Assembly (NCBI GenBank): GCA_949949035.1
Contig: CATLHJ010000007.1
Location: 1 to 43,574 of the forward strand
Direction: 5' to 3'
DNA: 43,574 bases
Source: an uncultured Clostridia bacterium
GTDB taxonomy: Bacteria; Bacillota; Clostridia; Christensenellales; UBA1242
Position 1 is the first letter of the stretch; the number at the start of each line of letters is the position of its first letter. Of this stretch, positions 1,651 through 42,616 are shown one piece after another. The notes beneath the pieces are model-generated. The model was given only the letters and a program-made list of their open reading frames with translations. It was not told the origin of the DNA and searched no databases. Both the position numbers and the translations under genes were made by a program.

Positions 1651-1679
1651 TTGTAACAAATCGGCGTTTGTTGTATAAT
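1651..1679 (+). promoter_or_regulatory. Promoter of proS, leaderless layout
   Basis: TTGTAA (1651-1656), 17-nt spacer, consensus TATAAT (1674-1679). The ATG follows after 8 nt, so transcription should begin almost at the start codon. No Shine-Dalgarno sequence fits in between. Confidence 0.75.
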
Positions 1680-1687
1680 GGATTTAT

Positions 1688-3328
1688 ATGAAAACTACTA
1701 TCATACTCGATAAGAAATTTGATAAAAAAAATACTAAACCCGTGACGGAAAAAAGCAATAAAATAACACAGAAGTCTATCAAGGCTACGAAAAATATGGT
1801 TATGGCAAAACCTGTGGCAATTTCTAACAAAATAGTGACAAAATCTGTACAACAAAAATCAGTAAAAACTGTTACAAAAACCGCACTAAAAACTGAAAAA
1901 AAATTTGTCGAAAATATTACCGAAATATTAAAAGACTTCCCCAAGTGGTATACAGACATTGTCCTAAAAACTGAACTTTGCGATTACGGACCGGTAAAAG
2001 GCACAATGGTAATTCGGCCGTACGGTTTTGCGTTGTGGGAAAATATCAAAAATGAATTAGATAAGCAATTGAAAACCCAAAATTACCAAAATGCTTATTT
2101 CCCGATGCTGATTCCATCGTCTTTTATTGAACGCGAAAAAGAACACGTGGCGGGATTTGCTCCGGAATTAGCTACGGTAACGCACGTGGGCAATGAGGCT
2201 TTAAGTGAAAAATTGTATCTCCGCCCTACTTCGGAAACGATTATCGGTAATATGATTGCCAAGTGGTTACAAAGTTATAAAGAGCTCCCTATGAAAATTA
2301 ATCAATGGTGTAACATTGTACGTTGGGAAAAAACAACCCGTCCATTTTTGCGTACCAGTGAATTTCTATGGCATGAGGCTCATGCCGTTTATGCCGACGC
2401 CAAGTCAGCCAAAACTGGTGCTTTGGACGATTTAGTATTGTACGAAAAGTTTATGCGCGAATTTTTAGCAATTCCTGCCTTGATTGGCCAAAAAAGTGAA
2501 AAAGAAAAATTTGCAGGAGCAGAAATTACTTACGGAGTTGAGGCGATGATGAAAGACGGTAAAAGTTTACAAGTCGGTACCAGTCATTATTTAGGACAAA
2601 ATTTTAGTAAATCATTCAACATTAAATTTCAAGATGATAAAAAGACCGAACGTTTCGCCCATACCACCAGTTTTGGTACTTCTACTCGACTGATTGGCGC
2701 TATTGTAATGACGCATGGCGATGATCGCGGTTTGGTTTTGCCACCACGCGTAGCACCGATCCAAGTCGTAGTTGTACCGATTGCTCAACAAAAACCCGGA
2801 GTCATGAATACGGCAAAGAACATTCAACGTAGTTTAGCTAACTTGCATTACCGCGTGACAATTGATGATAGTGACAATACACCCGGTTGGAAGTTTAATC
2901 AATGGGAAATGAAGGGGGTTCCGGTACGAATTGAAGTTGGCCCGCGCGATATTGAAAACAATGAATGTCAAGTCTTCCGTCGTGATTTATTAACCAAAGA
3001 AACTATCCGTTTAAACCGTGTAGAAGGTTACGTTGCGGAATTATTAGAAGATATCCACCATACGATGTTGGCTAACGCTACCCAAAACCGCGACAAGCAC
3101 ATCAAACGCGTCAAGACCTTCCCTGAACTGAAAAAAGCCATCAATGCCGGTAATTTTGTGTCGGCGCCTTGGTGCAATTGTACCGATTGCGAAGAAAAAA
3201 TAAAGACCGAAACTAATGGTGCATCTACGCGAGTGATGCTGTTTAATACTACCCCCGAAAAAGGTGCGGTTTGCGTAAAATGCGGTAAACCCGCCAAAGT
3301 TGAAATTATTTTTGCGAAGGCATATTAA
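1688..3328 (+). CDS. proS: Prolyl-tRNA synthetase, archaeal/eukaryotic type, with a basic N-terminal extension
   Basis: Class II synthetase that charges tRNA-Pro. The catalytic core begins near residue 78 (PKWYTDIVLK, YGPVKGTMVIRPYG) and includes LRPTSETIIG (motif 2 region), RTSEFLWHEAH and the motif 3 region THGDDRGLVLPPR. It is followed by the anticodon-binding domain and a C-terminal zinc-type domain with Cys pairs (WCNCTDC, CVKCGK). It ends in AKAY; a C-terminal Tyr is a hallmark of the archaeal-type (ProS3) enzyme. At 546 residues it is about 70 longer than usual because of a Lys/Ser/Thr/Val-rich, low-complexity head. The ATG at 1688 is supported by the promoter 8 nt upstream; ATG 1796 would remove part of the head. 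tyrS follows 12 nt later, so the two form an operon. Confidence 0.95.
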   Translation: MKTTIILDKKFDKKNTKPVTEKSNKITQKSIKATKNMVMAKPVAISNKIVTKSVQQKSVKTVTKTALKTEKKFVENITEILKDFPKWYTDIVLKTELCDYGPVKGTMVIRPYGFALWENIKNELDKQLKTQNYQNAYFPMLIPSSFIEREKEHVAGFAPELATVTHVGNEALSEKLYLRPTSETIIGNMIAKWLQSYKELPMKINQWCNIVRWEKTTRPFLRTSEFLWHEAHAVYADAKSAKTGALDDLVLYEKFMREFLAIPALIGQKSEKEKFAGAEITYGVEAMMKDGKSLQVGTSHYLGQNFSKSFNIKFQDDKKTERFAHTTSFGTSTRLIGAIVMTHGDDRGLVLPPRVAPIQVVVVPIAQQKPGVMNTAKNIQRSLANLHYRVTIDDSDNTPGWKFNQWEMKGVPVRIEVGPRDIENNECQVFRRDLLTKETIRLNRVEGYVAELLEDIHHTMLANATQNRDKHIKRVKTFPELKKAINAGNFVSAPWCNCTDCEEKIKTETNGASTRVMLFNTTPEKGAVCVKCGKPAKVEIIFAKAY

Positions 3329-3340
3329 AAGGTGATACCC

Positions 3341-6316: not shown

Positions 6317-6350
6317 AATCATCCTTATGACGGAAATTGTCGAAAGTTGC

Positions 6351-6851: not shown

Positions 6852-6867
6852 TAATTTATAGTATTTG

Positions 6868-8385: not shown

Positions 8386-9079
8386 TCAAAAATACCTCTT
8401 CCAGACTCTTATCGGCTTTAATGTCTTTCATGGCGCCACTCTTGATGATAGTTCCGTTTTTGATAATCACTACTTTGTTACAAATTTTTTCGGCAACTTC
8501 CAAAACATGGGTTGAATAAAAAATCGCCCCACCATTTTTAACAAAGTCGTTCATTACTTCTTTTAAAATAAACGACGCTTGTGGGTCCAAGCCAACAAAT
8601 GGTTCATCTAGAACCAATAATTTGGGATTACGCATAAACGCCGAAATTAAGACCAATTTTTGTCGCATTCCGTGAGAATAGGACTTAATCATAGCGCCTA
8701 AATCTTGATATAAATTCCATTTTTCAGCATACAATTTAATGCGGGCGTCGCGGTCAGCCGGAGAAATGTTGTAAACGGCCGCCACAAAATTTAAATATTC
8801 AATACCGGTTAATGTGTTATAAATATCGGGATTGTCGGGTATGTAAGCAGTTATTTTTTTACACGCCAAGGGGTCTTGTTTAACAGAAATGTTATCAATT
8901 AAAATTTCACCTTCGTTAAAATCCAATGTTCCAACGATACAGCGTATTGTTGTGGTTTTCCCGGAACCATTCGGGCCAATAAAGGCGCAGATATCACCGG
9001 GAGCCACTTCTATGTTGAGATCTTTAGCACCAACCTTACCATTTGCGTAAATTTTGGTGAAATTTTTAATTTTTAACAT
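8378..9079 (-). CDS. ABC transporter ATP-binding protein
   Basis: A 233-residue nucleotide-binding subunit that powers export. Walker A is GPNGSGKTT, the signature is SYSHGMRQK, Walker B is LLVLDEPFVGLDP, and the H-loop His is in YSTHVLE. The start is set at 9079 (MLKIKNF), not the upstream TTG, because TACAAT ends 5 nt before this ATG. It is most like the ATPases that pair with ABC-2 permeases, and the permease gene overlaps it by 8 bp. Confidence 0.95.
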   Translation of the reverse strand: MLKIKNFTKIYANGKVGAKDLNIEVAPGDICAFIGPNGSGKTTTIRCIVGTLDFNEGEILIDNISVKQDPLACKKITAYIPDNPDIYNTLTGIEYLNFVAAVYNISPADRDARIKLYAEKWNLYQDLGAMIKSYSHGMRQKLVLISAFMRNPKLLVLDEPFVGLDPQASFILKEVMNDFVKNGGAIFYSTHVLEVAEKICNKVVIIKNGTIIKSGAMKDIKADKSLEEVFLNA

Positions 9080-9084
9080 AAATA

Positions 9085-9113
9085 ATTGTAACAAGATTTC
9101 AATTTGCGCACAA
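9085..9113 (-). promoter_or_regulatory. Promoter of the ABC exporter operon, leaderless layout
   Basis: On the minus strand TTGTGC (9113-9108), 17-nt spacer, TACAAT (9090-9085), then 5 nt to the ATG at 9079. There is no Shine-Dalgarno sequence. Confidence 0.65.
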
Positions 9114-9286: not shown

Positions 9287-10822
9287 TTAATCTGCGGTTA
9301 AAATTTTTGCCCCAATTACCGTCATTGGAATTTTTTCGTTCGGGCTTAAATTACTTAAAATTACAACACCTTTCTGCTTGTCTTGTGTGAAACCGAGATA
9401 ACTGTTAAAATTGGTAGTGCCACCATTATGCCAAATAATTCCGTTTTTATCATCACGCAGCCAGGTCATACCGATGCTGTCTATGCGAATATTCATTTTT
9501 TCATAAGTTGGATTATTGGCCTCAACATCTTTGATGTTAGATATCGTTTGCGACGCGTAAGGCAAATCATCTTTCAGATACATTTGCATGTAGTTAGCCA
9601 TATCATTGATGTTTGAAATAATACTGCCGGCAGGAATGTAGCCGTCGCTTTTGCCCCACCGCCAATAGTTGGTTAAGTTCCCGTTTTGTTTGGCGACCAC
9701 CGTTTGCGATAGGTTAAGTTCGTTTTGTATATATTCGTTCATCAATTCGGTAAAGTCTTGCCCGTAAATTTGTTCTAATACCAGCCCCACTACGGCAATG
9801 CCAAAATTAGAATAAACGAAGGGATAATCTTTATCGACCAATTTAACACTTTTAACTTTGGCTAAGATTCGGGCTTTCGTTATCCCATAAAAATCGTTTG
9901 CAATGTGAGCAAATTTGTTACCAAGCATGGACACTTCAAAATAATAAGGCGCATAACCAGCGGTATGGGTCAACAAACGCTCCAACGTGGGATAATATTG
10001 ATTCGTTGGTAAGTCTAAATATTGTGCAATGTCGTCGGTTAAACTCAATTTACCTTCATGCACTGCTTTGGCGCATAATAGCCCAACAAAAGTTTTGCTG
10101 ATTGAACCGATTTCGTAATCGTAGATGGCGTCCTCTTCCCCATTAGCACTGTAGGTATGCAACGTGACATTATCGTTTTCGATTATGGCGACACTAATTT
10201 TATTGTTTTTGTCGACACAGTCGTATTCCAGCATTTCGGCAACGGACATTTTATCTAAGTTAGATAATTGACTAATTTGGTACCCCAAAATGCTACCATA
10301 AGTACCACTAATTAAAAGAATTAACGACAGAATAAAGGTGATTACCGTAACCCAACTATTGCGTTTGATTTTAAGTGATTGATCGACAACGATACCGTTT
10401 TTTACTGAAATTAAAATATGGGTTACTGAAAAAATAATTGCCGCAACGAACAGAGGTATGTTGCCCAGCATAATACCCGAAAATAAAAAAATAAAGGCGG
10501 GAATGAAGGACAATAACAGCGCACGTACAATGTTAGGTCTTTGCCATAGAATTAGCCATACTAGGCAATAGGCTATGACCAAGACAGTATTGACAACAAT
10601 GTAGATAACATTGGCTCCGGGAAAATAAAACCCCAGCCAAGTATAAGGTATGTTAAAGACCATTAAAAACATACAGCCATAACGACCGATTTGTTCAAAG
10701 ATGATTGCTATTTTGTTTAGATAAGTATTCTTGAACCCATCCTTGTTTTTTAGGGCAAAAATAATGTTTGGAATAATTATTACTAAGACAAAAATCAACC
10801 CAAGATAATTGAACCAAGACAT
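9287..10822 (-). CDS. Membrane serine hydrolase of the beta-lactamase/DD-peptidase (class C) family
   Basis: A 511-residue protein. The first ~175 residues hold about five or six hydrophobic helices; the rest is a penicillin-binding/beta-lactamase domain. The three active-site elements are visible: S-x-x-K as SISK near residue 240, Y-x-N as YSN near 337, and HNG near 466, where most relatives have KTG or HxG. This set fits class C-like esterases, D-amino peptidases and PBP4*-type proteins; true beta-lactamase activity is not implied. The start is placed at ATG 10822 rather than 10828 because TATAAT ends 8 nt before it. A terminator follows at 9125-9161, so it is a single-gene unit. Confidence 0.88.
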   Translation of the reverse strand: MSWFNYLGLIFVLVIIIPNIIFALKNKDGFKNTYLNKIAIIFEQIGRYGCMFLMVFNIPYTWLGFYFPGANVIYIVVNTVLVIAYCLVWLILWQRPNIVRALLLSFIPAFIFLFSGIMLGNIPLFVAAIIFSVTHILISVKNGIVVDQSLKIKRNSWVTVITFILSLILLISGTYGSILGYQISQLSNLDKMSVAEMLEYDCVDKNNKISVAIIENDNVTLHTYSANGEEDAIYDYEIGSISKTFVGLLCAKAVHEGKLSLTDDIAQYLDLPTNQYYPTLERLLTHTAGYAPYYFEVSMLGNKFAHIANDFYGITKARILAKVKSVKLVDKDYPFVYSNFGIAVVGLVLEQIYGQDFTELMNEYIQNELNLSQTVVAKQNGNLTNYWRWGKSDGYIPAGSIISNINDMANYMQMYLKDDLPYASQTISNIKDVEANNPTYEKMNIRIDSIGMTWLRDDKNGIIWHNGGTTNFNSYLGFTQDKQKGVVILSNLSPNEKIPMTVIGAKILTAD

Positions 10823-10830
10823 ATACATAT

Positions 10831-10859
10831 ATTATACGAACAAAAAATGCCCTAGGCAA
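10831..10859 (-). promoter_or_regulatory. Promoter of the beta-lactamase-like gene, leaderless layout
   Basis: Minus strand TTGCCT (10859-10854), 17-nt spacer, consensus TATAAT (10836-10831), 8 nt to ATG 10822. Confidence 0.75.
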
Positions 10860-11842: not shown

Positions 11843-12244
11843 TTATTGTGGTTTTTGTTGTTTGCTTTCGTGCGTCCTGCTTTGACGTTGTTGTAGTGAT
11901 TTTTCTTTTGACAAACAATACTGGTGCTTAATAAAGACAATTAAAATTATCAATAATAAAACGGTTATCGTTACCCCCGCAGCACACGAAATAACCAGCC
12001 ACCAATTAACATTTTCTGTTTTAATGATTGTTGTTTCAGGATCAGAAATTGGCTCTAAAGATTCGTTATTATTGATTTCGTCGTCAACAAAAGTCAATAA
12101 GTTGTTATTGGTCGATGTCGAATGCGTCATGGGGCGCGTAGATAACAGCAACCCCGATGACGCCACCACCACGACCAATACTGCTACTAACAAAGATGTA
12201 GTGACAATTTTAGCCGTGCGTGATTCTCCCCCAAAATTCGACAT
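11843..12244 (-). CDS. Two-helix membrane protein, unknown
   Basis: A 133-residue protein I do not recognise. Helix 1 lies near residues 15-37, followed by about 45 polar Asn/Ser/Thr/Glu-rich residues, helix 2 (WWLVISCAAG...) near residues 80-104, and a basic Gln/Lys-rich tail. The layout suggests an outward-facing loop with both ends inside. The start is set at 12244 rather than 12262 because a TTGCCA-17-TACAAT promoter ends 6 nt before this ATG; the upstream ATG overlaps the spacer. It is divergent from dapA with 79 nt between. Confidence 0.6.
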   Translation of the reverse strand: MSNFGGESRTAKIVTTSLLVAVLVVVVASSGLLLSTRPMTHSTSTNNNLLTFVDDEINNNESLEPISDPETTIIKTENVNWWLVISCAAGVTITVLLLIILIVFIKHQYCLSKEKSLQQRQSRTHESKQQKPQ

Positions 12245-12250
12245 CATGTT

Positions 12251-12279
12251 ATTGTAATGCATATTTATAAATGTGGCAA
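12251..12279 (-). promoter_or_regulatory. Promoter of the two-helix membrane protein, leaderless layout
   Basis: Minus strand TTGCCA (12279-12274), 17-nt spacer, TACAAT (12256-12251), 6 nt to ATG 12244. Confidence 0.7.
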
Positions 12280-12323: not shown

Positions 12324-13166
12324 ATGCAACTTATTTTTGATGGTGTGGCGACCGCATTGGTTACGCCTTTTGAGCAAGACCAAATTGATTGGGGGCGGTT
12401 CAAAAATTTAATTGAACGTCAAATTAACCAAGGTGTGGACGCCTTATTGTTTTTAGGCACAACCGGAGAAATGCCAACTTTGACGCATGCCGAACGGCAC
12501 GCAGTGATTGACTTTGCTTTGGCAACTGTTGGTAATCGCGTCCCGTTGATTTTTGGTATTGGTGGTAATGACCCAGCGACCATTATTGAGTTAGGCTTAT
12601 ACGTGGCCGAACAAGCCCGTACCGCCGGCGTCTGCCCCGCTATCATGGTCAGTTCGCCATATTACAATAAAGCAACGCCGGCTGGGTTATACGCTTTTTT
12701 CCGAAAAATAACCAATACCATAAAATTACCGACCATAGTCTACAATATTCCTTCGCGCACAGGGGTTAACATCGACCCCACGACCATGGCAAAAATTGCC
12801 CGCTTACACTACGTGGCCGGCATCAAGGAAGCCAGTGGCAATCTTACGCAAATTACCCAAGTTGTGGCGTTGTGCCCGCAGACTGCTGTTTACAGCGGTG
12901 ATGATACATTGGCGTTACCATGCTATGCAGTTGGTTGCCGTGGCATTATTTCAGTAGCTGCCAACTTAGCAGTTGCACCAGTACAAAATATTTATCATTT
13001 GTACGAGAGTGGTCATCCCCAACAAGCCTTAAACTTGTTTATAAGTCAGTTACCTTTATATCAATCTTTATTCCGCGTGGTCAACCCCATTCCTGTCAAA
13101 TGTGAATTAGCCAAAATAGGCCTAATAAAAAACGCATTACGCTTGCCACTGTTACCCGTTAAATGA
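12324..13166 (+). CDS. dapA: 4-hydroxy-tetrahydrodipicolinate synthase
   Basis: Condenses pyruvate with aspartate semialdehyde, the first committed step to diaminopimelate and lysine. LGTTGEMPTLT is the family pyruvate loop (usually GTTGESPTL); VYNIPSRTG carries the Tyr and Arg of the active site; GIKEASGN carries the Schiff-base Lys168. The 280-residue length is slightly below the usual 290. A -10-like TATAAC (12313-12318) ends 5 nt before the ATG and there is no Shine-Dalgarno site, but no good -35 box is seen. The dnaD promoter lies in its last codons. Confidence 0.94.
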   Translation: MQLIFDGVATALVTPFEQDQIDWGRFKNLIERQINQGVDALLFLGTTGEMPTLTHAERHAVIDFALATVGNRVPLIFGIGGNDPATIIELGLYVAEQARTAGVCPAIMVSSPYYNKATPAGLYAFFRKITNTIKLPTIVYNIPSRTGVNIDPTTMAKIARLHYVAGIKEASGNLTQITQVVALCPQTAVYSGDDTLALPCYAVGCRGIISVAANLAVAPVQNIYHLYESGHPQQALNLFISQLPLYQSLFRVVNPIPVKCELAKIGLIKNALRLPLLPVK

Positions 13167-13172
13167 TATACT
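13143..13172 (+). promoter_or_regulatory. Promoter of dnaD-dnaI, inside the end of dapA, leaderless layout
   Basis: TTGCCA (13143-13148), 18-nt spacer, TATACT (13167-13172), then 7 nt to ATG 13180. Confidence 0.75.
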
Positions 13173-13179
13173 ACGGTTG

Positions 13180-13899
13180 ATGGGAACAGTCTCTTTTTCG
13201 CGTGGTTATATGACAACCGGTTACACCAATATTGCCAACCTTTTTATGGAAGAACACCTGCCCATGGCCAATGGCGATTGTGTACGGGTTTATTTGTATG
13301 GTTTATATTTATGTCAAAATGCGAACAGTGCTGATAACACTTTGGAAAACATGTCGGCTAAATTAGGTATTCCTGTTGCCAACATTAAAGACGCCTTTGA
13401 GTATTGGGAACAGCAGGGTTTAGTGCAAGTATTAGATACTGTACCACTGGAAGTTAAATATTTACCAATTCGCCCCCATTCCGCAAAAGTACGGGCCTTA
13501 CCGCAAGGCAAATACGACGATTTCAATACCAAGGCCCAAGCCATTTTAGACGGACGCATGATTACTACTACCGAATTTCATGAGTACTACGCGTTTATGG
13601 AAAGTATGCACTTTGAACCCGACGCGTTATTGTTGGTGATAAAAAACTGCGTGCTATTAAAGGGGTTCACAGTGGGTTACGCCTACATCCTAACGGTGGC
13701 CAAGAATTTAGCGTACGAAGGACTGACTACCCATCAGGCTGTCAGTGACAAGTTTGCTGCTGCCGAAAAAGATCATAACGCATTGGCGGAATTGATTAAA
13801 GGTATTCGCAAAAAGAAACCCGCCACCAAAGATTTCATCAAACACAGTTACTCGGAAGAAGTATATAAGGAGAAAGATATTAATGACATCGAATTTTAA
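13180..13899 (+). CDS. DnaD-domain replication initiation protein
   Basis: A 239-residue protein with an N-terminal winged-helix region (about 25-100: LSAKLGIPVANIKDAFEYW is the recognition-helix-like part) and a C-terminal DnaD/DnaB2 domain (about 120-205) ending in the family segment YILTVAKNLAYEG. In low-GC Gram-positive bacteria DnaD and DnaB proteins remodel the origin and load helicase together with DnaI. The downstream overlapping dnaI gene supports that role. ATG 13180 is preferred to the TTG at 13177 because the -10 box ends 7 nt before it. Whether it is the DnaD or DnaB orthologue cannot be told. Confidence 0.85.
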   Translation: MGTVSFSRGYMTTGYTNIANLFMEEHLPMANGDCVRVYLYGLYLCQNANSADNTLENMSAKLGIPVANIKDAFEYWEQQGLVQVLDTVPLEVKYLPIRPHSAKVRALPQGKYDDFNTKAQAILDGRMITTTEFHEYYAFMESMHFEPDALLLVIKNCVLLKGFTVGYAYILTVAKNLAYEGLTTHQAVSDKFAAAEKDHNALAELIKGIRKKKPATKDFIKHSYSEEVYKEKDINDIEF

Positions 13900-15062: not shown

Positions 15063-15765
15063 TGTGATAAACCGCTTGCACATCGTCGTTGCTTTCCAAA
15101 TTGTCAATCAGTTTTTCAAAACTGGCGTTTTTGTCTTCAGGTATCGCTACGGTCGAGGTTGGCACCCACTCTATGTTGGCACTTTCGGTTTTAATGTCAT
15201 GTTGTTCCAAAACAGCCAACACAGCATTAAAGTTTTCGGGTTTAACCGTAATGGTAACCAACCCCTCGTCGGTAGTCATGTCTTCCAATGGACTATCTAA
15301 TAAAACTTCCAACAGTTGATCTTCGGTTCGATTGGCTACATTGATGACCCCTAGGCGATTAAACATAAAGGATACTGAACCAGAAACCCCCAAGGCACCA
15401 CCCGCTTTGTCGAAATACGAGCGTACATCACCAGCAGTGCGATTTTTGTTATTGGTCAGGGCTTCAACGATTACGGCAATTCCCGCCGGACCATAACCTT
15501 CGTAAATCATTGATTCGTAATTGTTGTCGCCACTATCGCCCAAGCCTTTAGCAATCGCTCGCTTAATGTTATCATTCGGCATGTTGTTGCTTTTGGCTTT
15601 GGCAATGACTTCTTTTAATTTGCTATTATTTTCGGGGTCACCGCTGCCACCCAATTTAACTGCAACCATAATCTCTTTACCAATTTTGGTATAGACATTA
15701 CTGCGTTCTGCATCCGCCAAACCTTTTTTGCGGTGAATTTTACTCCATTTGTTATGTCCACTCAT
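15052..15765 (-). CDS. YebC/PmpR family protein
   Basis: A 237-residue protein with the family start SGHNKWSKIHRKKG and the segment YEGYGPAGIAVIVEALTNNKNRT. Members act as DNA-binding regulators or, for some YebC proteins, help ribosomes pass difficult sequences such as Pro runs. The ATG overlaps the end of the trmH-type gene by 14 nt and has its own TTGCCG-17-TACAAT promoter 7 nt upstream, so it can be expressed apart from the ribosomal operon. The neighbour ruvC is the usual partner in many bacteria. Confidence 0.95.
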   Translation of the reverse strand: MSGHNKWSKIHRKKGLADAERSNVYTKIGKEIMVAVKLGGSGDPENNSKLKEVIAKAKSNNMPNDNIKRAIAKGLGDSGDNNYESMIYEGYGPAGIAVIVEALTNNKNRTAGDVRSYFDKAGGALGVSGSVSFMFNRLGVINVANRTEDQLLEVLLDSPLEDMTTDEGLVTITVKPENFNAVLAVLEQHDIKTESANIEWVPTSTVAIPEDKNASFEKLIDNLESNDDVQAVYHNAE

Positions 15766-16384
15766 AGAATTTATTGTAACACATTATTATTGCTCCGGCA
15801 ACTGCTACGTTTAATGATTCACAGCCCGAGGCCATCGGGATAGTAAACACCTTATGCGGTAATTGGTATAATGCAGGATCAATGCCCTGACCTTCGTTCC
15901 CCAAGACTATCCCAAAATTTTTTTCCTTAATGGGCTGCGGTTTACCACCACTGATGTCAGCAAGGTAATAGGTGGCGTCAGTTGGTAATTTGTCAATTTG
16001 GGTATCTATAATATTCAGTTGTAATCCCATACCACTGCTGGCGCGAATAACTTTCGGTGAATAAGGGTCTACGCATCGCAATGTGTAAATTGTCTTAAAC
16101 CCAAAAGCAAGTGCTGTCCGCAAAATAGTTCCCATATTGCCGGGGTCCTGGATACGGTCTAATACCAAAAAAGGCGTAGTGGGGAGCGTCGGTTGCGGAA
16201 TTTTGGCAACCGCTACCCGACCGGTATAAGTTTGCAAATTTTTCAAATCGTCGTGTTCAAATACTTTTACCACTTTGTCGAGATTGTCATTGATAATTTT
16301 TTCGCCTTCCAAAATACATAAAGAAAACTCCTGCCGATATTTTTTGGCCAGAAGTTTCTTTAATATTTTAGTATTGATTTCCAT
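15752..16384 (-). CDS. SpoU/TrmH family RNA 2'-O-methyltransferase
   Basis: A 210-residue SPOUT-fold enzyme that methylates ribose in rRNA or tRNA with S-adenosylmethionine. The three family motifs are visible: LDRIQDPGNMGTILRTA, VLGNEGQGI, and IPMASGCESLNVAVAGAI, which form the knotted cofactor site. The first ~95 residues are a short substrate-binding part. It follows rplT by 6 nt, a common place for this gene in Bacillota. The exact target nucleotide is unknown. Confidence 0.92.
   Translation of the reverse strand: MEINTKILKKLLAKKYRQEFSLCILEGEKIINDNLDKVVKVFEHDDLKNLQTYTGRVAVAKIPQPTLPTTPFLVLDRIQDPGNMGTILRTALAFGFKTIYTLRCVDPYSPKVIRASSGMGLQLNIIDTQIDKLPTDATYYLADISGGKPQPIKEKNFGIVLGNEGQGIDPALYQLPHKVFTIPMASGCESLNVAVAGAIIMCYNKFYEWT
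15773..15801 (-). promoter_or_regulatory. Promoter of yebC-ruvC, inside the trmH-type gene, leaderless layout
   Basis: Minus strand TTGCCG (15801-15796), 17-nt spacer, TACAAT (15778-15773), 7 nt to ATG 15765. Confidence 0.7.
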
Positions 16385-16390: not shown

Positions 16391-16744
16391 TTACGCCAAG
16401 GCTTCTTTGGCTTTAATAACCAAAGCGGTAAAGGCTTGTTGATCATTAATGGCCAATTCTGACAAGGCTTTGCGATTGATATTAATTTCGGCTTTCTTCA
16501 AACCGTCCATCAAACGGCTGTAAGTAATGTCGTTATTGCGAGCGGCTGCGTTGATACGGGCAATCCACAGTTTACGGAAATCACGTTTTTTCAAACGGCG
16601 ACCGACGTAGGCGTATTGACCCGATTTCATCACTTGTTCACGAGCGACACGGTACAAAGTCGATTTGGAAGCACGGTAGCCTTTCGCCAAGTGTAACACT
16701 TTGCGACGCTTCTTTAAGGCATTGACACTGCGTTTAACTCTCAT
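16391..16744 (-). CDS. rplT: 50S ribosomal protein L20
   Basis: A 117-residue primary rRNA-binding protein of the large subunit. The start [29 protein letters not shown] segment, [19 protein letters not shown] and [10 protein letters not shown] are diagnostic. A strong AGGAGG site lies 9-10 nt before the ATG. L20 is the known autoregulator of infC-rpmI-rplT in low-GC Gram-positives and would act on the leader at 17487-17635. Confidence 0.98.
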
Positions 16745-16932
16745 TTTTGAATTAACCTCCTAATCGTTTTTTCTTCTGATTTGCTGACAGTCGAACCGTG
16801 ACGTAACTTGCGCTTACGTTCCCTTTTCTTTTTATTAAGGATGTGGTTCTTGTTCTTCATAGTGCGCTTAATGTCGTTTTTGCGAGCATTAAAACGTTTC
16901 TTGGCACCACTATGCGTCTTCATCTTGGGCAT
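16741..16932 (-). CDS. rpmI: 50S ribosomal protein L35
   Basis: A 63-residue large-subunit protein. It starts [14 protein letters not shown], the invariant L35 start. ATG 16932 is chosen over 16938 because the family starts there and AAGGAG is 9 nt away, while it would be only 3 nt from the upstream ATG. It overlaps the rplT start by 4 nt. Confidence 0.97.
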
Positions 16933-16946
16933 GATCATTCTCTCCT

Positions 16947-17486
16947 TTATTTTTTCTTTTTCGGTGCCAACATTACCATTATGTTAATGTTACGCCCCGG
17001 TACACCGGATTTAGCAACCGGTGTTTCAATGTCGGCGATGTCTAACATTCTTTCAGCAAACTGCGTAACCACAGCAACACCCTTATCGGCCAGCATCGTT
17101 TTACGTCCCCGAATACGGTTAATACAAACCTTAACCTTATCACCATTTAGAATACATTCGCGTGCTTTGTTTAATTTGAAAGCAATTTCATTTTCTTGAA
17201 TGGCAATGGAAAGTTGCACTTCTTTAATATCAACCATATTACGACGTTGTTCTTTCTTTTGCGTTTTTTCTTTTTTAATTTGCTCGTAGCGGAATTTTGA
17301 ATAATCAATAATTTTGGCTACGGGTGGTTTGGAATTTTCGTTAATTAAAACCAAATCCAAACTAGCATTATCGGCTAATTTCAACGCTTGAGCCAACGTG
17401 ATGATACCTAACATTTCGTTATCCACACCAATGACCCGCAATTCTGGACAAGTAATTTCGCTGTTAATTTTCAGTTCCTTAAAAAT
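16947..17486 (-). CDS. infC: Translation initiation factor IF-3, ATT start codon
   Basis: Binds the 30S subunit and checks start codons. The 179-residue protein has the N-domain (INSEITCPELRVIG, then ALKLADNASLDLVLIN and PPVAKIIDYSKFRYEQ) and the C-domain ending near GRNINIMVMLAP. The family reading frame continues upstream of the first standard start codon (TTG at 17441) to ATT at 17486-17484, which has GGAGG 9 nt before it; further up there is an in-frame TAA. An ATT start is known for infC in E. coli and B. subtilis, where it lets IF-3 repress itself. Confidence 0.95.
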   Translation of the reverse strand: MFKELKINSEITCPELRVIGVDNEMLGIITLAQALKLADNASLDLVLINENSKPPVAKIIDYSKFRYEQIKKEKTQKKEQRRNMVDIKEVQLSIAIQENEIAFKLNKARECILNGDKVKVCINRIRGRKTMLADKGVAVVTQFAERMLDIADIETPVAKSGVPGRNINIMVMLAPKKKK

Positions 17487-19387: not shown

Positions 19388-19394
19388 CAAATTA

Positions 19395-19423
19395 AGTATA
19401 TAAAATTTCCTTGTACATTTCAA
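19395..19423 (-). promoter_or_regulatory. Promoter of the Cys-His-Asp gene pair, leaderless layout
   Basis: Minus strand TTGAAA (19423-19418), 17-nt spacer, TATACT (19400-19395), 7 nt to ATG 19387. Confidence 0.75.
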
Positions 19424-24797: not shown

Positions 24798-24804
24798 AAA
24801 TTTC

Positions 24805-33407: not shown

Positions 33408-34187
33408 TTATTTGTCGAAATTGCCAATAATTTGTGTAATTTGCCAATAATTTGTCGGTGACAACTGTTCGGGGCGCAAACTGGGATCAATTTGAGCTTG
33501 CGTCAATACTTTTCCCGCCAAGATTTTATCACCGTGCAAAACAGCTGTTAAAGCGTTCAACATTGTTTTACGGCGTCCGGCGAAAATACCCTTTACTACC
33601 TGATTTAATCGTGGATCAGTTGGCACATCTTTTTTTATCAAGCACACAAAGGCGCTGTCGACTTTAGGCTGCGGCGTAAACATACGGCGTGGCACCGACT
33701 TAACAATGGTACAATCCGCTAACCACTGGCATGTCACCGATAACGCACCATATTCCGCACTACCGACGGGGGCGACAATGCGCTTGGCCACTTCGTCCGC
33801 CACCAGAATATTCACGTCGGTACAATTTGGTAAAGTTAAGAACTTCAACAACAACGGCGTCGTAATGTAATAAGGCACATTGGCGATTAAACGAAATTGG
33901 CCGTACTGCGCAAAATCGTGTTGTAAAGCGTCACCAAATACTAATTGCACATTGGCGAACGATGCCAAATTTTTTTGCAAAATCGGTATTAAGCGTTGGT
34001 CAATTTCAATGGCACGTACTTGGCAATCGTATTCCGCCAATACGCGGGTTAAAGTACCAGCCCCTGCGCCAACTTCCACTACTGTATCAGTCGGCTTTAT
34101 TGCCAGTTTCCCCACCATTGAACGTAAAAAATTTTGGTCATAAATGAAGTTCTGCCCTAACGATTTTTTATAGTTAAATTCCACCAA
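33408..34187 (-). CDS. rsmA: 16S rRNA (adenine-N6,N6)-dimethyltransferase
   Basis: Dimethylates A1518 and A1519 of 16S rRNA late in 30S assembly. A 259-residue protein with KKSLGQNFIYDQNFL, VVEVGAGAGTLT (SAM loop), IEIDQRL and NVPYYITTPLL (NxPY active site). The start is TTG at 34187 or GTG at 34184; a -10-like TATGCT ends 8 nt before the TTG. The start lies in a hairpin (34181-34210). Near the 3' end a 15-nt sequence is repeated at a 20-nt period. Confidence 0.95.
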   Translation of the reverse strand: MVEFNYKKSLGQNFIYDQNFLRSMVGKLAIKPTDTVVEVGAGAGTLTRVLAEYDCQVRAIEIDQRLIPILQKNLASFANVQLVFGDALQHDFAQYGQFRLIANVPYYITTPLLLKFLTLPNCTDVNILVADEVAKRIVAPVGSAEYGALSVTCQWLADCTIVKSVPRRMFTPQPKVDSAFVCLIKKDVPTDPRLNQVVKGIFAGRRKTMLNALTAVLHGDKILAGKVLTQAQIDPSLRPEQLSPTNYWQITQIIGNFDK

Positions 34188-34210
34188 ACCAGTTTAGCAT
34201 AATTTGGTGG
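34181..34210. repeat. Inverted repeat over the rsmA start
   Basis: CCACCAAA (34181-34188) and TTTGGTGG (34203-34210) are perfect 8-bp arms around 14 nt. One arm contains the TTG/GTG start codons, and the loop holds the presumed -10 box. Confidence 0.6.
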
Positions 34211-35068: not shown

Positions 35069-35069
35069 C

Positions 35070-37127: not shown

Positions 37128-40119
37128 TCTCCCCATTTCCTTTTTCAATTAGCACTTCGACTGCCAAAACCTCTTGCATAATGCGGGGTTTATAAGCGTT
37201 AGCCGCCGTAAAGGTTTTCTCATCGGCAGTTTTAATCGTTAATTTGATACGGTCCTGTAAATCCAATTTTTGGTTAGCCCGTTCTAACTGGATAGAACGA
37301 ATCAATTCACGAGCAATTCCTTCCAGCATCAAGTCATCAGTAATGATGGTGTCCAAAACCACGGTAGTCGCGCCACTGGTGACAATCACAAAGCCGTCTT
37401 TCGGCGCCAATTTACGTTCAAATAGTTCAGGATTCAAAGGTTCAAAATCAGCCACCTTAATTTTTTGGTTAGTGTCAAAAGCCGCCACATATTCCGGCAT
37501 TTTTTTTGACTTCTGTAACGCTTCCTTCAACTTTTGTACTTTGTTCTTTAAGACCATACCCGCTTTTTTGAAGTTAACCGCCAAATAAGCAACATTAAAT
37601 TTGTTATCGTCGGCGACCAATTCAATGTGCTTCACGTTTAGTTGCTCTTTAATTAAATCACTAAACATTTGAATCGATTCTACGCGGTCAGTTTTCACAT
37701 ACAATTTGGCCAATGGTTGTTTAATAGCAATTTGGTGTTCAGCCCGCAAAGACAAGCCTAAACTGATTATTTCTTGTACGTAGGCTACATGCGGCAACAT
37801 ATCGGTCTTATTTTTGATTTTGAATGGTACGGGATAGTCCGCCAACATAACTGGGCTTTCCCCTTCACCGAAACAATTTTGCCACAAATATTGTGTGTAA
37901 CTGGGCACTAAAGGTGTCAACACAATTACGACGGTGCGTAATGCATTGAACAAACACCAATAAGCATTCATTTTGTCGCGGTCTTCTCCGTTTTTCCAAA
38001 AGCGACGGCGGTTAACACGGATGTAAAAATTAGAAATATTTTCCACAAAGTCATCGGTCAGTTTAACCACTTGGTGAGCCTTGAAATTGTCGTAGGCTGT
38101 GCGCGTAGCGGTAATGTATTGATTGGTCAACTGCATTAACCATAAATCGGTTGGCGATAAATCTTGCGGTTGGTAATTCTTTACGTCGGGTTTATCAATC
38201 ATGGCGTAAGTAGTATAAAAAACGTAAGCGTTCCACAAGGCCAGCAAACGGCGTTTTGCGTCTTCGGCAATATTATCCCCAAAGCGCATATCCAAGGTCG
38301 GATTACCCGAAGCAAACGCGTAACGCAATACGTCTACGCCGTACTTTTGGGCAGCGTCTTCAATGTAAATCTTTTTAGGTCCGGTTTTGGAAAACTTTTT
38401 ACCATCTTCGTCAACCATTGTCGAATAGCCAACCACATTTTTGTATGGTGCTTCACCAGTTAAAACTACCGACATGAATAGTTGGGCATAAAACCATAAC
38501 CGTACCTGCTCTTTCATTTCCAAAACCATGTCCGCCTTAAACTGACCTTTGGGTTTGGTTGAAAAGGGTGCAATGCCGGCGTCCAACCAACAATCACCCA
38601 CCTCGGTCACCCGTTTAACTGGTTGATGACATTTTTCACAATAAATTTCCACACTATCAATGTATGGCCGATGCAAATGTGGCAAAGCATCTACCTTACT
38701 GGGGTCTACCGCCCGGTCGCGTAATTCTTTTTTGCTACCAATCACGTTTAGGTGTCCACACGAACAAGGATAAAACGGCAAAGGTAATCCATAGAAGCGA
38801 CGACGACTAATATTCCAATCCCCCATGTCGGTTAACCATTGACGCATCGATTTTCCCATGAAATCGGGCGTCCAATTTACCGTATCAGTGGCCTTTAACA
38901 AATCTTTCCTGATACTATCCACCGCGATGTCGTACCCCGAAACCAAGCGGAAAATAACATCAGTTTTGCAACGCCAACAGTAGGGGTAGTTATGCGTGTG
39001 ATCGTGATAGTAGTATAAAGTTTGATTGGCTTTTAATTTTTCAAAAACCACCGTTTCACAATTGGTGGTTGATAAACCACTCAACCATTCAAATTCTTTA
39101 CCGAAAACACCGTTCTCGCCAACGGGGATAATCGGCACAAGTCCTAATTCAGTGCCCAGTGCAAAGTCTTCCGCCCCACAACCAGGTGCGATGTGCACCG
39201 CTCCCGAACCATCAACTTCATCAACTTGTGACCACGGCACAATTTGGTGTTCAAAGTTTTGTTTCGCCAACGGCAAGAACGGTTCATAAACCTGACCGAC
39301 TAAATCACTGCCCTTGACTTTTTCCACAACTTTCACTAAATCATTGCGCAAAACTGACAAACGTTGCTCACAAACAATTAACAATTGGGTATCACTTTTA
39401 ACTTGGCACTTACAATAGGTAAATTCAGGGTTAACCGCAATCGCCACATTGGCCGCCAAAGTCCACGGCGTAGTTGTCCACACCAAAATGCGTTCGTCTT
39501 TGCCGACCAGTTTAGCCTTAACAAAAACCGCCTTGTGCGTACGTTCTTTATAACTACCACTCATTTCGTGTTCACTTAAACTGGTGCCACAGCGCGGACA
39601 CCACGGCATCGTTTTATAACTGGACTTTAACATTTTTTTGTTGTTGCAAACTTTCAAGAAATGCCAAATCGCCGTAATATTTTGATCAGAGTTGGTAATG
39701 TAACTGTGCTCCCAATCGCCCAATTCTTCCATTATCTTGCTTTGTTCAGTTTGCAAATTTTTGAAATAATTTACCCGTTCAATGCATTTTTCGGTAAATT
39801 TATCTAAACCGTATTTGGTAATTTCTTGCTTGTCATTCAAACCTAACAGTTTTTCCACTTCGACTTCGACCCACATCCCTTGAGCGTCAAAACCCCAAAC
39901 ATAATCGACTTCTTTACCAATTAAGGATTGATAGCGGTTATAAGCGTCTTTCAGTGTGCGTCCCCAACCATGGTGCAAACACATCGGCGCATTAGCAGTT
40001 ATGGGACCATCCATGAAGTTGTATTTCGGCTTACCTTGATTCTTGGCTTTGATCCGCACCAAAATATCTTGCGGTTCATAATTTCGCTTAAAATCGAAGA
40101 TGGTTTTTTCTTTTTTCAT
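37102..40119 (-). CDS. ileS: Isoleucyl-tRNA synthetase with altered HIGH and KMSKS motifs
   Basis: A 1005-residue class I synthetase that charges tRNA-Ile. The editing domain (VWTTTPWTLAANVA, GSGAVHIAPGCGAEDF), the WCPRCGTSLSEHE segment and the C-terminal part with two D/E/K-rich domains fit a type 2 (eukaryotic-like) IleRS. The active-site signature HxGH is replaced by C47-L48-H49-H50, aligned through the following LKD; relatives with GxHH are known. The second signature reads KFSKT near residue 575 instead of KMSKS. ATG 40119 follows a TTGAAA-17-TACACT promoter by 6 nt. The following gene overlaps its end. Confidence 0.95.
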   Translation of the reverse strand: MKKEKTIFDFKRNYEPQDILVRIKAKNQGKPKYNFMDGPITANAPMCLHHGWGRTLKDAYNRYQSLIGKEVDYVWGFDAQGMWVEVEVEKLLGLNDKQEITKYGLDKFTEKCIERVNYFKNLQTEQSKIMEELGDWEHSYITNSDQNITAIWHFLKVCNNKKMLKSSYKTMPWCPRCGTSLSEHEMSGSYKERTHKAVFVKAKLVGKDERILVWTTTPWTLAANVAIAVNPEFTYCKCQVKSDTQLLIVCEQRLSVLRNDLVKVVEKVKGSDLVGQVYEPFLPLAKQNFEHQIVPWSQVDEVDGSGAVHIAPGCGAEDFALGTELGLVPIIPVGENGVFGKEFEWLSGLSTTNCETVVFEKLKANQTLYYYHDHTHNYPYCWRCKTDVIFRLVSGYDIAVDSIRKDLLKATDTVNWTPDFMGKSMRQWLTDMGDWNISRRRFYGLPLPFYPCSCGHLNVIGSKKELRDRAVDPSKVDALPHLHRPYIDSVEIYCEKCHQPVKRVTEVGDCWLDAGIAPFSTKPKGQFKADMVLEMKEQVRLWFYAQLFMSVVLTGEAPYKNVVGYSTMVDEDGKKFSKTGPKKIYIEDAAQKYGVDVLRYAFASGNPTLDMRFGDNIAEDAKRRLLALWNAYVFYTTYAMIDKPDVKNYQPQDLSPTDLWLMQLTNQYITATRTAYDNFKAHQVVKLTDDFVENISNFYIRVNRRRFWKNGEDRDKMNAYWCLFNALRTVVIVLTPLVPSYTQYLWQNCFGEGESPVMLADYPVPFKIKNKTDMLPHVAYVQEIISLGLSLRAEHQIAIKQPLAKLYVKTDRVESIQMFSDLIKEQLNVKHIELVADDNKFNVAYLAVNFKKAGMVLKNKVQKLKEALQKSKKMPEYVAAFDTNQKIKVADFEPLNPELFERKLAPKDGFVIVTSGATTVVLDTIITDDLMLEGIARELIRSIQLERANQKLDLQDRIKLTIKTADEKTFTAANAYKPRIMQEVLAVEVLIEKGNGENEILVKLA

Positions 40120-40125
40120 ATTTCT

Positions 40126-40154
40126 AGTGTACCCTTTTAATTAATAATTTTCAA
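40126..40154 (-). promoter_or_regulatory. Promoter of ileS, inside the end of the HEPN-CBS gene, leaderless layout
   Basis: Minus strand TTGAAA (40154-40149), 17-nt spacer, TACACT (40131-40126), 6 nt to ATG 40119. Confidence 0.7.
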
Positions 40155-40878
40155 TGATCTTCATTAAGTCCATAATATCGGCGTTAGTCAAGATACCTAC
40201 CGGCTTCTGCATCGCTGTACCGTCAGGAGTTATAATTACAGCCGCAATCTTACGATTGTTATTAAAGATGGTTAAGACCTGTTCAATCGTAACTTGGGCA
40301 TTAACGACGGTGTAATGCCCATTTTGCGGATAAGCCCGCAAGTATTCTTCCACCGAGGTGTGACGAATAAACTCATCCAAACTGCGTGCATCCATAATTT
40401 CATTACCCATGTCTTCAATAAGTTTCCGCCAACGGACTACCCCCACCAAAGTGTTACCCTTGTAGGCAGGAATCGTCCCGTGCCCGGTTTTCCCTGTTTC
40501 CTTAATCAAGTCATACATAGTGCGAGTGGCGTCAATTAAGGTCACCGGTCGCATTTTAATGACATCAATCACCAATGGTGGCGTCGTCACCAACTGCACA
40601 ATTTTTTCCATTAACATCACCACATCAAGGTGCGGTTCGGCAATAACGCGCGTTGAATCGCCACTGTGAATAATGGCGTTGCGCAAACGTGCCATGCTGA
40701 CCAATTCATTTTCGTAGGTCGCTATAACGCGGTTCAGGTCGGCACAGCGGCGAATTAAGTCCGTAAACGAAATAGTCGCCTTATAATTGTATTGAATCCG
40801 TAACGCTTTATCTAGGGTGTTATACGCATCCAAAAAGCGCATTCCCAAAGTCTTTGCGGTGTTGGTTACATTTGACAT
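40141..40878 (-). CDS. HEPN-like domain fused to a CBS pair
   Basis: A 245-residue soluble protein. Residues 1-75 are helical and carry R66-N67-A-I-I-H71, the RNxxxH motif of catalytically competent HEPN RNases. Residues ~98-150 (VTLIDATRTMYDLI ... IPAYKGNTLVGVV) and ~172-240 (YTVVNAQVTIEQVL ... KPVGILTNADIMDLM) are two CBS repeats, which usually bind adenine nucleotides. The inference is a nucleotide-gated RNase or RNA-binding protein. ATG 40878 is chosen over 40983 because TATAAT ends 7 nt before it and the longer form would run into rnr. It is divergent from rnr with a 28-nt gap. Confidence 0.75.
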   Translation of the reverse strand: MSNVTNTAKTLGMRFLDAYNTLDKALRIQYNYKATISFTDLIRRCADLNRVIATYENELVSMARLRNAIIHSGDSTRVIAEPHLDVVMLMEKIVQLVTTPPLVIDVIKMRPVTLIDATRTMYDLIKETGKTGHGTIPAYKGNTLVGVVRWRKLIEDMGNEIMDARSLDEFIRHTSVEEYLRAYPQNGHYTVVNAQVTIEQVLTIFNNNRKIAAVIITPDGTAMQKPVGILTNADIMDLMKIIENY

Positions 40879-40901
40879 AATACCCATTATACACTTATAA
40901 T
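40872..40901 (+). promoter_or_regulatory. Promoter of rnr, leaderless layout
   Basis: Consensus TTGACA (40872-40877), 18-nt spacer, consensus TATAAT (40896-40901), then 5 nt to GTG 40907. The -35 box overlaps the ATG of the divergent gene. Confidence 0.8.
40886..40891 (-). promoter_or_regulatory. -10 box of the HEPN-CBS gene, leaderless layout
   Basis: Consensus TATAAT on the minus strand, 7 nt before ATG 40878; a weak -35 (TTTACT or TTACTC) lies inside the rnr start. It sits within the spacer of the rnr promoter, so the two promoters should exclude each other. Confidence 0.6.
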
Positions 40902-40906
40902 TAGGT

Positions 40907-42616
40907 GTGAGTAAAATAGAAAATAGATTGACCGGCGAACTCAGTGTCACCTTAAAAGGTTTTGGCTTTGTTGATATTCCCAATCAAGAGAACGACATTT
41001 TTATCCCCAAAGATAACTTGAATGGTGCTGTTGATGGCGATATTGTCGAGATTCGTTTCAAGAAGAAAAAATTTAATGGTCGCCCCGAAGCCGAGGTGAT
41101 TCATATTGTTTCCCATAACGCCAAGACCATGGATATGGACACAATCATGAAAAAATATAATTTGTCCAATGATTTCCCATCGGCGGTCATTGCCGAAGCC
41201 CAAAAGGTGGTTAACCTTAACCTTGACGATTGTATGACCAACCGCCGCGATTTCCGTGACTTGCCAGTAATCACGATTGACCCCGCTGACGCCCGCGATT
41301 TGGACGACGCGGTTAGTTTGGTAGAAAATAATGATGGCACCTTGACCTTGGGTGTACACATCGCTGACGTATCCGAATACGTCACTGAAGGTAGCGAACT
41401 GGATAAGGAAGCTTACCGCCGCGGTACCAGCGTTTACTTCCCCGACCGCGTATTTCCGATGTTGCCAACCCAACTGTCCAATGGTGTTTGCTCGCTGAAT
41501 CCCAACGAACCGCGTTTGACGTTGTCCGTTATGATGACATTGGACAAATTTTACAACATCATTGACTACAAAATTAAAAAAAGTATCATTCAAAGTGTAA
41601 CCCGCTTTTCTTATAATGAAGTCCAAGAAATTTTGGATGGCAAAAAACATAAACACCGCGCAATGATTATGAAAATGGCCGAAATAGCCCAAAAGCAGGA
41701 ACAAGACCGTCGCGCGCGTGGCGAAGTCGCTTTCCAAGTTCCCGAACCCAAAATCGTGCTGGACGAAAACGGACAAATTAAAGACGTGTATTCGCAACCG
41801 CACAATTTAAGCCACCGTATAATTGAAACCTTTATGATCATGACTAACGAAGTAGTTGCCGAACATTTTAATAAACTTAATTTACCGTTCGTGTACCGGG
41901 TTCATGATAAACCCGATCCCATAAAAGTTATTCGCTTTTTAAATACCTTAACGCCGTTTGAAATTAAACATAAAATTGATTTTGAACACCCTGATGGGCA
42001 CCAATACCAAGCCATGTTGGATGGTATTACCGACCCTAATGTGAAAACCATTGTGTCAACCTTGGCACTACGTTCCATGCAAAAAGCCAAATATTCGCCC
42101 AACTGCATTGGTCATTTTGGTTTAGGCTCAACCTATTATTGCCACTTTACTTCCCCAATTCGCCGTTACCCCGACCTGCTAATTCACCGTATTATAAAAA
42201 TGTTTTTAGACAGCAAATTGAACAGTCATAAAATTGAAGAACTAAACGATTTTGTAGCGGAAGCCAGTGAACAATGTTCACAAACCGAGTTGTCTGCCGT
42301 GGAAGCCGAACGCGAAGTCGACAACCTGAAACGCGCCGAATACATGCACGCCCATTTAGGCGAAACATTTAAGGGTGTCGTCAACGGCATAACCGATTTT
42401 GGCGTGTTTGTTTACCTTCCCGAAAATACCGCTGAAGGTTTAGTGCGTATTGATAATTTACCCGCTGATAATTACACTTTTAACGAAAACACCATGCAAA
42501 TGATTGGTAAAAAATCAAAAATTCGTATGGGCGACCCGATGGTTGTTACCGTAATTGGTGTTAATTTACGTCGTTGCAAGATTGAGTTCAGTGCTAACTG
42601 CACCCAAACAGGCTAA
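40907..42616 (+). CDS. rnr: Compact RNase R-type exoribonuclease
   Basis: A 3'-5' exoribonuclease of the RNB family, 569 residues. One cold-shock domain (GFGFVDIPNQENDIFIP, about 17-50) is followed by the RNB core with TIDPADARDLDDAVSL (catalytic Asp residues), HIADVSEYV and CHFTSPIRRYPDLLIHR, and a C-terminal S1 domain (FKGVVNGITDFGVFVYL). Usual RNase R proteins have 700-800 residues; the N-terminal helix-turn-helix, the second cold-shock domain and the Lys-rich tail are missing. The GTG start has a perfect promoter 5 nt upstream and no Shine-Dalgarno site. Confidence 0.94.
   Translation: MSKIENRLTGELSVTLKGFGFVDIPNQENDIFIPKDNLNGAVDGDIVEIRFKKKKFNGRPEAEVIHIVSHNAKTMDMDTIMKKYNLSNDFPSAVIAEAQKVVNLNLDDCMTNRRDFRDLPVITIDPADARDLDDAVSLVENNDGTLTLGVHIADVSEYVTEGSELDKEAYRRGTSVYFPDRVFPMLPTQLSNGVCSLNPNEPRLTLSVMMTLDKFYNIIDYKIKKSIIQSVTRFSYNEVQEILDGKKHKHRAMIMKMAEIAQKQEQDRRARGEVAFQVPEPKIVLDENGQIKDVYSQPHNLSHRIIETFMIMTNEVVAEHFNKLNLPFVYRVHDKPDPIKVIRFLNTLTPFEIKHKIDFEHPDGHQYQAMLDGITDPNVKTIVSTLALRSMQKAKYSPNCIGHFGLGSTYYCHFTSPIRRYPDLLIHRIIKMFLDSKLNSHKIEELNDFVAEASEQCSQTELSAVEAEREVDNLKRAEYMHAHLGETFKGVVNGITDFGVFVYLPENTAEGLVRIDNLPADNYTFNENTMQMIGKKSKIRMGDPMVVTVIGVNLRRCKIEFSANCTQTG

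Follow-up and report, generated by a model that had tools for sequence, protein, structure and literature searches.

How much of its mRNA could a clostridial genome make without a 5' leader? The question is raised by a stretch of 43,574 nucleotides from an uncultured Clostridia bacterium (contig CATLHJ010000007.1 of assembly GCA_949949035.1; C7:1-43574 in our numbering), hereafter called the window. A first-pass annotation had noted that many start codons in it lie 5–8 nt behind a sigma-A -10 box and have no Shine-Dalgarno (SD) site. In bacteria, leaderless genes have been described above all in Actinobacteria and Deinococcus-Thermus. We found that the leaderless-type layout is real and genome-wide. 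With a probability of roughly 90%, about one-third of the genes of this organism are preceded by a sigma-A-type promoter with the end of its -10 box 4–9 nt from the start codon, are predicted to give leaderless mRNAs, and represent a state derived within a family that uses SD sites.

Near -10 boxes across the genome

The window is part of a 1.09-Mb draft genome (42 contigs, 89.75% complete), of which 444 kb with 369 genes were sampled (G+C content 44%). Start codons were chosen from coding score and upstream signal jointly, and a fixed-matrix mixture model assigned the genes to a near -10 class (-10 box ending 4–9 nt 5' of the start codon) or an SD class. The near -10 class comprised 37% of the genes (confidence interval 32–41%), the SD class 54%. 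As our method differs from that of Zheng 2011 and yields a background of 0–13% in SD-type genera, the true share may be lower; by our estimate it may be nearer 25–35%. The check named in the first-pass annotation, a comparison with shuffled upstream sequence, revealed a genome-wide peak of -10 boxes at 5–8 nt that vanishes in three shuffled sets.

Motif discovery on the same 369 genes, with no motif given, produced as its best three-motif model an AAGGAG SD motif (46%) and a TATAaT motif (29%), the latter located 5–8 nt before the start with a gap mode of 6. The best two-motif model paired the SD motif with a -35-like motif 30–34 nt before the start, on which three of the six runs shown ended. 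A simple start chooser (coding score plus an ATG bonus) gave a weaker signal in the same direction, with 49 of 365 genes at gap 4–8 versus 12.3 after shuffling.

Gene calls were ignored in a test anchored on promoters. Behind 334 textbook promoters of the sample, 40 ATG or GTG codons opening a reading frame were located at 5–8 nt, versus 9.2 expected from the distances 12–59 nt (p = 6e-14); the distances 6 and 7 nt accounted for 16 and 15 of them. In the window by itself, 49 promoter-like sites gave nine versus 1.4 expected (Poisson p = 1.6e-5). The mixture model, motif discovery and promoter anchoring make unlike assumptions and concur.

These data bear on the explanation that TATAAT precedes ATG by chance in an AT-rich genome, or that starts were misassigned. 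The upstream regions do have an A+T fraction of 0.60, and the crude pattern TATAATN{5,7}ATG is raised in SD-type genomes too. That pattern, compared with its reversed form in 59 and 248 genomes, was rejected as an index because the genome G010 scores 112 versus 17 yet has no gene-level peak. Chance is contradicted, however, by the shuffled sets and by the fixed 6–7 nt peak anchored on promoters, and the more AT-rich relatives G010 (32% G+C) and G022 (26%) have no peak. Together with the conservation of codons at the starts described below, this makes chance boxes or misassigned starts very improbable.

Promoter elements and the point of transcription start

The 83 strictest near -10 genes of the sample (the strict set) were selected without using the -35 region. 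TTG occurs at spacer 17 in 33 of them and at spacer 18 in 12, and spacers 16–18 together give 48 matches among the 83 genes. The near -10 boxes belong to genuine promoters with a -35 element at 17 nt. The -35 preference in this set is shifted: among the 45 hexamers listed out of 48 of TTG type, 21 begin with TTGC (12 with TTGCC) and 12 with TTGA, unlike the textbook TTGACA. The recurrence of TTGCC, which had been noted in the window, thus holds genome-wide, with 12 TTGCC versus 8 TTGAC among the listed hexamers. A separate sigma factor for TTGCC promoters was considered and dropped, as the -35 hexamers of the strict genes gave no evidence for it.

Start codons in the strict set are ATG in 77 genes, GTG in five and TTG in one, and an SD core is present in eight genes and absent from 75. 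T immediately precedes the start codon in 54% of the set versus 28% of 179 SD genes (p = 6e-5), most strongly at gap 5 (15 of 17). Bacterial transcription starts prefer a pyrimidine at -1 and a purine at +1. The excess of T therefore fits a transcription start on the start codon, and so does the single TTG among 83 starts, since a TTG start would need a pyrimidine at +1.

Very short leaders of about 1–4 nt, with translation still independent of SD sites, would look similar. The gaps in the strict set spread from 4 to 9 nt, a miaB-like gene (30032) has a gap of 10, and RNA polymerase varies its start choice within a few nucleotides. On the other side, the mode at 6–7 nt sets the purine of ATG or GTG at the usual start position, and the -1 T and the rarity of TTG starts fit +1 at the start codon. 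We hold short leaders to be possible but rather unlikely compared with strictly leaderless mRNAs.

The divergent pair of rnr and a CBS-domain gene is the clearest case in the window. The two start codons are 28 nt apart and the promoters interlock. The layout of rnr is kept in sister genomes, and the CBS-domain gene has TATAAT-6-ATG in all six sisters compared (one aligned one codon off), so that neither mRNA has room for a leader. The pair also bears on the idea that leadered mRNAs come from a second, more distant upstream promoter and that the near one is minor: the distant promoter would here fall inside the other gene. As 75 strict genes also have no SD core, an upstream promoter of this kind appears quite unlikely, though not as improbable as chance boxes.

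Operon position separates the two classes. Among 88 divergent first genes, 61 were in the near -10 class (56 in another count), 22 in the SD class and five ambiguous, whereas 159 genes located under 40 nt downstream of a gene on the same strand comprised 108 SD, 34 near -10 and 17 ambiguous genes (Fisher p = 3e-13, classed genes only). Because an inner cistron needs its own promoter to be leaderless, leaderless first genes and SD-led inner genes are what a leaderless genome is expected to have.

Conservation between species

Orthologues of 99 genes were collected from 699 kb of seven genomes of the same genus (G001-G005, G007, G009; unequal coverage). The sister start was fixed by protein alignment, independently of upstream signals; hits were kept at 45% identity and 60% coverage or more if they began no later than residue 12. 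Of 158 pairs, 154 were usable; removing 39 with an offset start left 115, five of which had an ambiguous start class in our genome.

Of 52 pairs in which our gene is of the near -10 class, 30 have a near -10 box in the sister as well, 18 show neither signal there and four an SD site. Of 58 pairs with an SD gene, 43 have an SD site in the sister too, 14 neither signal and one a near -10 box. With shuffled sister sequence only 7.2 of the 52 kept their class (maximum 13 in 200 rounds). The start class is thus kept between species although the upstream sequence has diverged: the first and second positions of codons 2 and 3 are 88–92% identical, the 50 nt before the start only 21–67%, in a comparison that required a start codon in both species. 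This contrast, and the retained class, also contradict misassigned starts.

Distribution in the family

In the comparison with relatives suggested in the first-pass annotation, all six sister genomes sampled had the peak, and in eight further genera sampled from the family it was weak or absent. The sampling covered 13 of the 25 other genera listed for the family. The near -10 fraction was 0.33–0.54 in the sisters. It was 0.45 in G012, 0.53 in G015, 0.33 in G023 and 0.31 in both G020 and G027, which we call leaderless-rich, and 0.08 in G010, 0.00 in G011, 0.13 in G014, 0.07 in G017, 0.08 in G019, 0.00 in G022, 0.10 in G030 and 0.07 in G032, the SD-type genera. Outside the family, G098 gave 0.04 and a 50-kb stretch of Escherichia coli 0.00. 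The promoter-anchored count, pooled, was 162 versus 37.9 expected in twelve leaderless-rich genomes and 38 versus 27.5 in the eight SD-type genera (p = 0.03); omitting G030 (8 versus 2.2) left 30 versus 25.3 (p = 0.20).

In an rpoB tree (366 columns, 13 rows, midpoint root) the genus of the window, G012, G015 and G023 form one clade with a support of 100/100. G020 and G027 fall outside it, and the trait needs three changes on the tree. Divergent first genes have a near -10 box in 156 of 252 cases in the clade versus 11 of 120 in the eight SD-type genera. A distance of 60 nt or less between the two start codons was found for 23 of 126 divergent pairs in the clade, including an overlapping one (at -29), and for one of 60 in SD-type genera (p = 0.0008); close pairs such as that of rnr recur in several sisters, so that these counts are not independent.

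A separate observation concerns rpoB itself. Outside two closer groups its pieces are only 41–56% identical within this one family, meaning either very fast evolution or an over-wide family.

T-boxes and the translation machinery

T-box leaders were found in none of the ten genomes of the window's genus (drafts of the genus are 73–90% complete), nor in G012, G015 and G023 (13 clade genomes altogether) or in G027, while 21 of the 25 other family genomes contained one to six each; the filters of these whole-genome counts were stricter and lose some weak matches. The leaderless-rich forecast drawn from T-box absence before sampling held for all three genera concerned (G012, G023, G027). That of an SD type from T-box presence held for four of five (G017, G019, G022, G030, G032), G030 being borderline because of its promoter-anchored count. 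Independent support for the link is thin, as most T-box-free genomes are in one clade. No Rfam cis-regulatory RNA reached the gathering score in the 444 kb of our genome, and 520 kb of SD-type genera contained only three, all in G019. The zero in our genome alone therefore says little, and the T-box counts carry the point.

The translation machinery shows no visible change. The 16S 3' end reads GGATCACCTCCTTT, with an intact anti-SD sequence, which rules out a non-SD ribosome without CCUCC at this end. The gene for IF3 (PF05198, PF00707) is located in the window, and S21 is found in our genome and in 55 of 59 genomes searched (eight of ten in the window's genus). A ribosomal cause of the trait was rejected on these three grounds. 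A frame of the size of ribosomal protein S1 (330–410 residues) with an S1 match was not seen in six of six genus genomes, in G012 and G023, or in the SD-type G010, G017 and G030. Among leaderless-rich genera, G015 and G020 do show it, and a 402-residue frame with one match occurs in G027. Missed in some SD-type and seen in some leaderless-rich genera, S1 does not track the trait. Our whole genome contained only two S1-domain matches, in a 727-residue frame and in rnr; a repeated loss of ribosomal protein S1 is possible.

Genes of the window

All ten promoter/start strings that the first-pass annotation had spelled out in full are present, with the given hexamers, spacers and gaps, as is the TATAAT-7-ATG before the CBS-domain gene (Table 1). 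None of the ten genes has a good SD site, the best being AGGGTA at 10 nt before ileS (score 1.3), and TTGCC is the -35 motif in five. Of 38 window genes assigned, 18 were in the near -10 class, 16 in the SD class and four ambiguous.

Table 1. Start regions in the window, with promoter/start strings (start-codon position in brackets).
Feature	String	Positions	Strand	Basis and remarks
proS	TTGTAA-17-TATAAT-8-ATG (1688)	1651..1690	+	predicted leaderless; TIGR00408 proline--tRNA ligase; class -10 0.99
ABC transporter ATPase	TTGTGC-17-TACAAT-5-ATG (9079)	9077..9113	-	class -10 0.99
Beta-lactamase-fold gene	TTGCCT-17-TATAAT-8-ATG (10822)	10820..10859	-	PF00144; class -10 0.99
ORF 12244	TTGCCA-17-TACAAT-6-ATG (12244)	12242..12279	-	uncertain; no Pfam match; absent from gene-caller list
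dnaD/DnaB_2-like gene	TTGCCA-18-TATACT-7-ATG (13180)	13143..13182	+	PF07261; class -10 0.97
yebC	TTGCCG-17-TACAAT-7-ATG (15765)	15763..15801	-	class -10 0.99
infC-rplT region		16391..17441	-	SD-class starts (contrast class); PF05198 + PF00707 on 16947-17441
Cys-His-Asp gene	TTGAAA-17-TATACT-7-ATG (19387)	19385..19423	-	uncertain; no Pfam or NCBIfam match
P-type ATPase	TTGCCA-17-TAAAAT-7-ATG (24797)	24795..24833	-	family match and string check
ksgA (RrnaAD)	TAAACT-6-GTG (34184)	34182..34196	-	missed by first-pass annotation; class -10 0.99
ileS	TTGAAA-17-TACACT-6-ATG (40119)	40117..40154	-	weak case; string check and sister comparison
CBS-domain gene	TATAAT-7-ATG (40878)	40876..40891	-	divergent from rnr; class -10 0.99
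rnr	TTGACA-18-TATAAT-5-GTG (40907)	40872..40909	+	class -10 1.00; layout kept in 5/5 sister genomes compared

The names given earlier to proS, the ABC ATPase, the beta-lactamase-fold gene, dapA, the DnaB_2/DnaD-like gene, yebC, the P-type ATPase and rnr agree with Pfam or NCBIfam. In the gene called HEPN-CBS only the CBS domain was matched. Three of the listed strings, though present, make less secure examples. ORF 12244 has the standing given in Table 1. The start model would begin the Cys-His-Asp gene later, at 19198, and coding score alone chooses 19108. For ileS the choice was a poor one: six of seven sister genomes have an SD-type start (AGGA/AGGG-type, scores 2.0–3.1; near -10 box at most 2.2), and only G003 has a near box (TAAAAT-6-GTG).

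Among the other starts, the beta-lactamase-fold gene has a second in-frame ATG at 10828 (gap 2), and in the sole orthologue compared of the P-type ATPase (G009) TATAAT precedes, by 7 nt, an ATG that lies three codons 5' of the aligned start. ksgA has TAAACT, TACACT or TATACT 6 nt before GTG in three of three sisters. The miaB-like gene, likewise overlooked earlier and less exact, keeps its gap of 10 in two of two. The lytic transglycosylase gene and dapA are weak, as described before (-10 scores of only 2.8 and 3.2), and so is the gene at 33387 in the window (2.5), which has a near -10 box in three of three sisters (3.1–5.3; one aligned one codon off). In the infC-rplT region the starts at 17426 and 16744 belong to the SD class (0.72 and 0.96); the frame 16391-16744 is, by our reading, probably rplT.

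Further features concern single proteins and the window as a whole. The proS product has about 80 additional N-terminal residues rich in lysine and threonine (1688-1930), its profile match beginning at residue 82, and RNase R (40907-42616) lacks the N-terminal part of the profile, the match beginning at position 146 of 711. By ileS, the six closest named relatives (78–80% identity) are all metagenome-assembled genomes, five labelled Clostridia bacteria and one Prevotella, and rumen or cecum is named for three of them. Two unlike kinds of ileS occur in the order (loci L132-L161): one, 45–62% identical to that of the window, in G003, G011-G016 and G020, the other, 33–36% identical, in G010, G017-G019 and other families, which suggests replacement by transfer. 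The window ends (1-127 and 43448-43574) are exact inverted copies over 127 bases, and both start with the same GTG-started frame (4-669 on the plus and 42936-43571 on the minus strand); they are probably a repeat where the assembly broke.

Discussion

According to the first-pass annotation, leaderless mRNA would be in frequent use in this Clostridia-like genome. Promoter position, missing SD sites, the bias to first genes and conservation bear this out; the step to the mRNA we infer. Judged from promoter position, the sigma-A polymerase would begin the transcript with the A or G of the start codon; the ribosome would bind the leaderless mRNA via its 5' start codon. Leaderless mRNAs would be biased to the first genes of transcription units, inner operon genes mostly keeping their SD sites. 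As the translation machinery shows no visible change, both modes of initiation would coexist, as they do in mycobacteria; leaderless initiation is known for mycobacteria and Deinococcus. The layout would be a derived one within the SD-using family, since the genera that have it are a single, strongly supported clade plus two other lineages, G020 and G027. If 5' leaders were lost, this would account both for no T-box being found in the clade and for divergent start codons only 15–60 nt apart.

Several observations weigh against this reading. Three of the six two-motif discovery runs shown reached diffuse AT-rich motifs instead, 18 of the 52 near -10 orthologue pairs have neither signal in the sister, and ileS is of SD type in most sisters. 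Since starts were called from coding score and signal together, the near -10 class is over-called within operons, affecting some of the 34 close followers; for the gene at 32331 the 'box' falls in conserved last codons of the preceding gene. By the identical method SD-type genera reach up to 13%, and pooled they have a slightly elevated promoter-anchored count. The rpoB tree is small and midpoint-rooted, a single origin staying compatible with it, and for the direction of change the order is represented beyond the family by a single genome (G098). T-box loss is not required, as the leaderless-rich G020 has three T-boxes.

C. difficile and C. phytofermentans belong to the class Clostridia. Their promoters are of the same general kind as those described here, but few of their genes are leaderless: 15 potentially leaderless genes are given for C. 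difficile (PMC7438776), and 4% of the InterS TSS of C. phytofermentans are leaderless, generally with an RBS (PMC5171806). In Zheng 2011 (PMC3160421), the mean share of TA-led genes is 19.2% in Actinobacteria and 39.4% in Deinococcus-Thermus; among 209 Firmicutes genomes, 56 have leaderless (TA-led) genes, with a mean share of 4.2% and a maximum of 16.6%, chiefly in Lactobacillales and Mycoplasma. The leaderless transcriptomes of Mycobacterium tuberculosis (Cortes 2013) and Deinococcus-Thermus resemble the present case in having the start codon directly behind the -10 box and in the mixture with SD genes. Actinobacteria and Deinococcus-Thermus are other phyla, which Zheng 2011 describes as high in G+C, whereas here a small-genome member of the Clostridia at 44% G+C has a full TATAAT with a TTG -35 element. 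Lactobacillales and Mycoplasma share with it the phylum and -10 boxes near starts, but at 37%, by another method, our genome lies outside the low-level type of Firmicutes. The -35 element of Lactococcus is said to be probably missing (PMC3160421), unlike the TTG matches of our strict set. GeneMarkS-2, as retold in PMC9581028, predicted leaderless transcription in 21.6% of bacterial species, with up to 40% of transcripts; the main text of that article names neither Firmicutes nor Clostridia. Literature searches found no publication on leaderless genes in this lineage. Leaderless bacterial genes are known as such; what is new is their heavy and apparently derived use in a clade of Clostridia beside SD-using genera.

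A wider scenario has, in our judgement, about an even chance of being right. Within one small-genome family of Clostridia, the default would have switched from SD-led to leaderless initiation, apparently two or three times, as transcription starts slid onto the start codon; the main clade and G027 would have discarded their leaders together with T-box control of aminoacyl-tRNA synthetase genes, and divergent promoters would have been packed until start codons were 15–60 nt apart. Leaderless initiation in bacteria would then be open to being regained, and more than the ancestral remnant that Zheng 2011 (PMC3160421) takes bacterial leaderless genes to be.

For work on these organisms, a gene finder that presupposes SD sites would be likely to put starts in the wrong place. 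With SD-type and leaderless-type genera side by side, the family would make it possible to ask how promoters, ribosome and regulation respond to the loss of leaders, and whether such loss can happen repeatedly.

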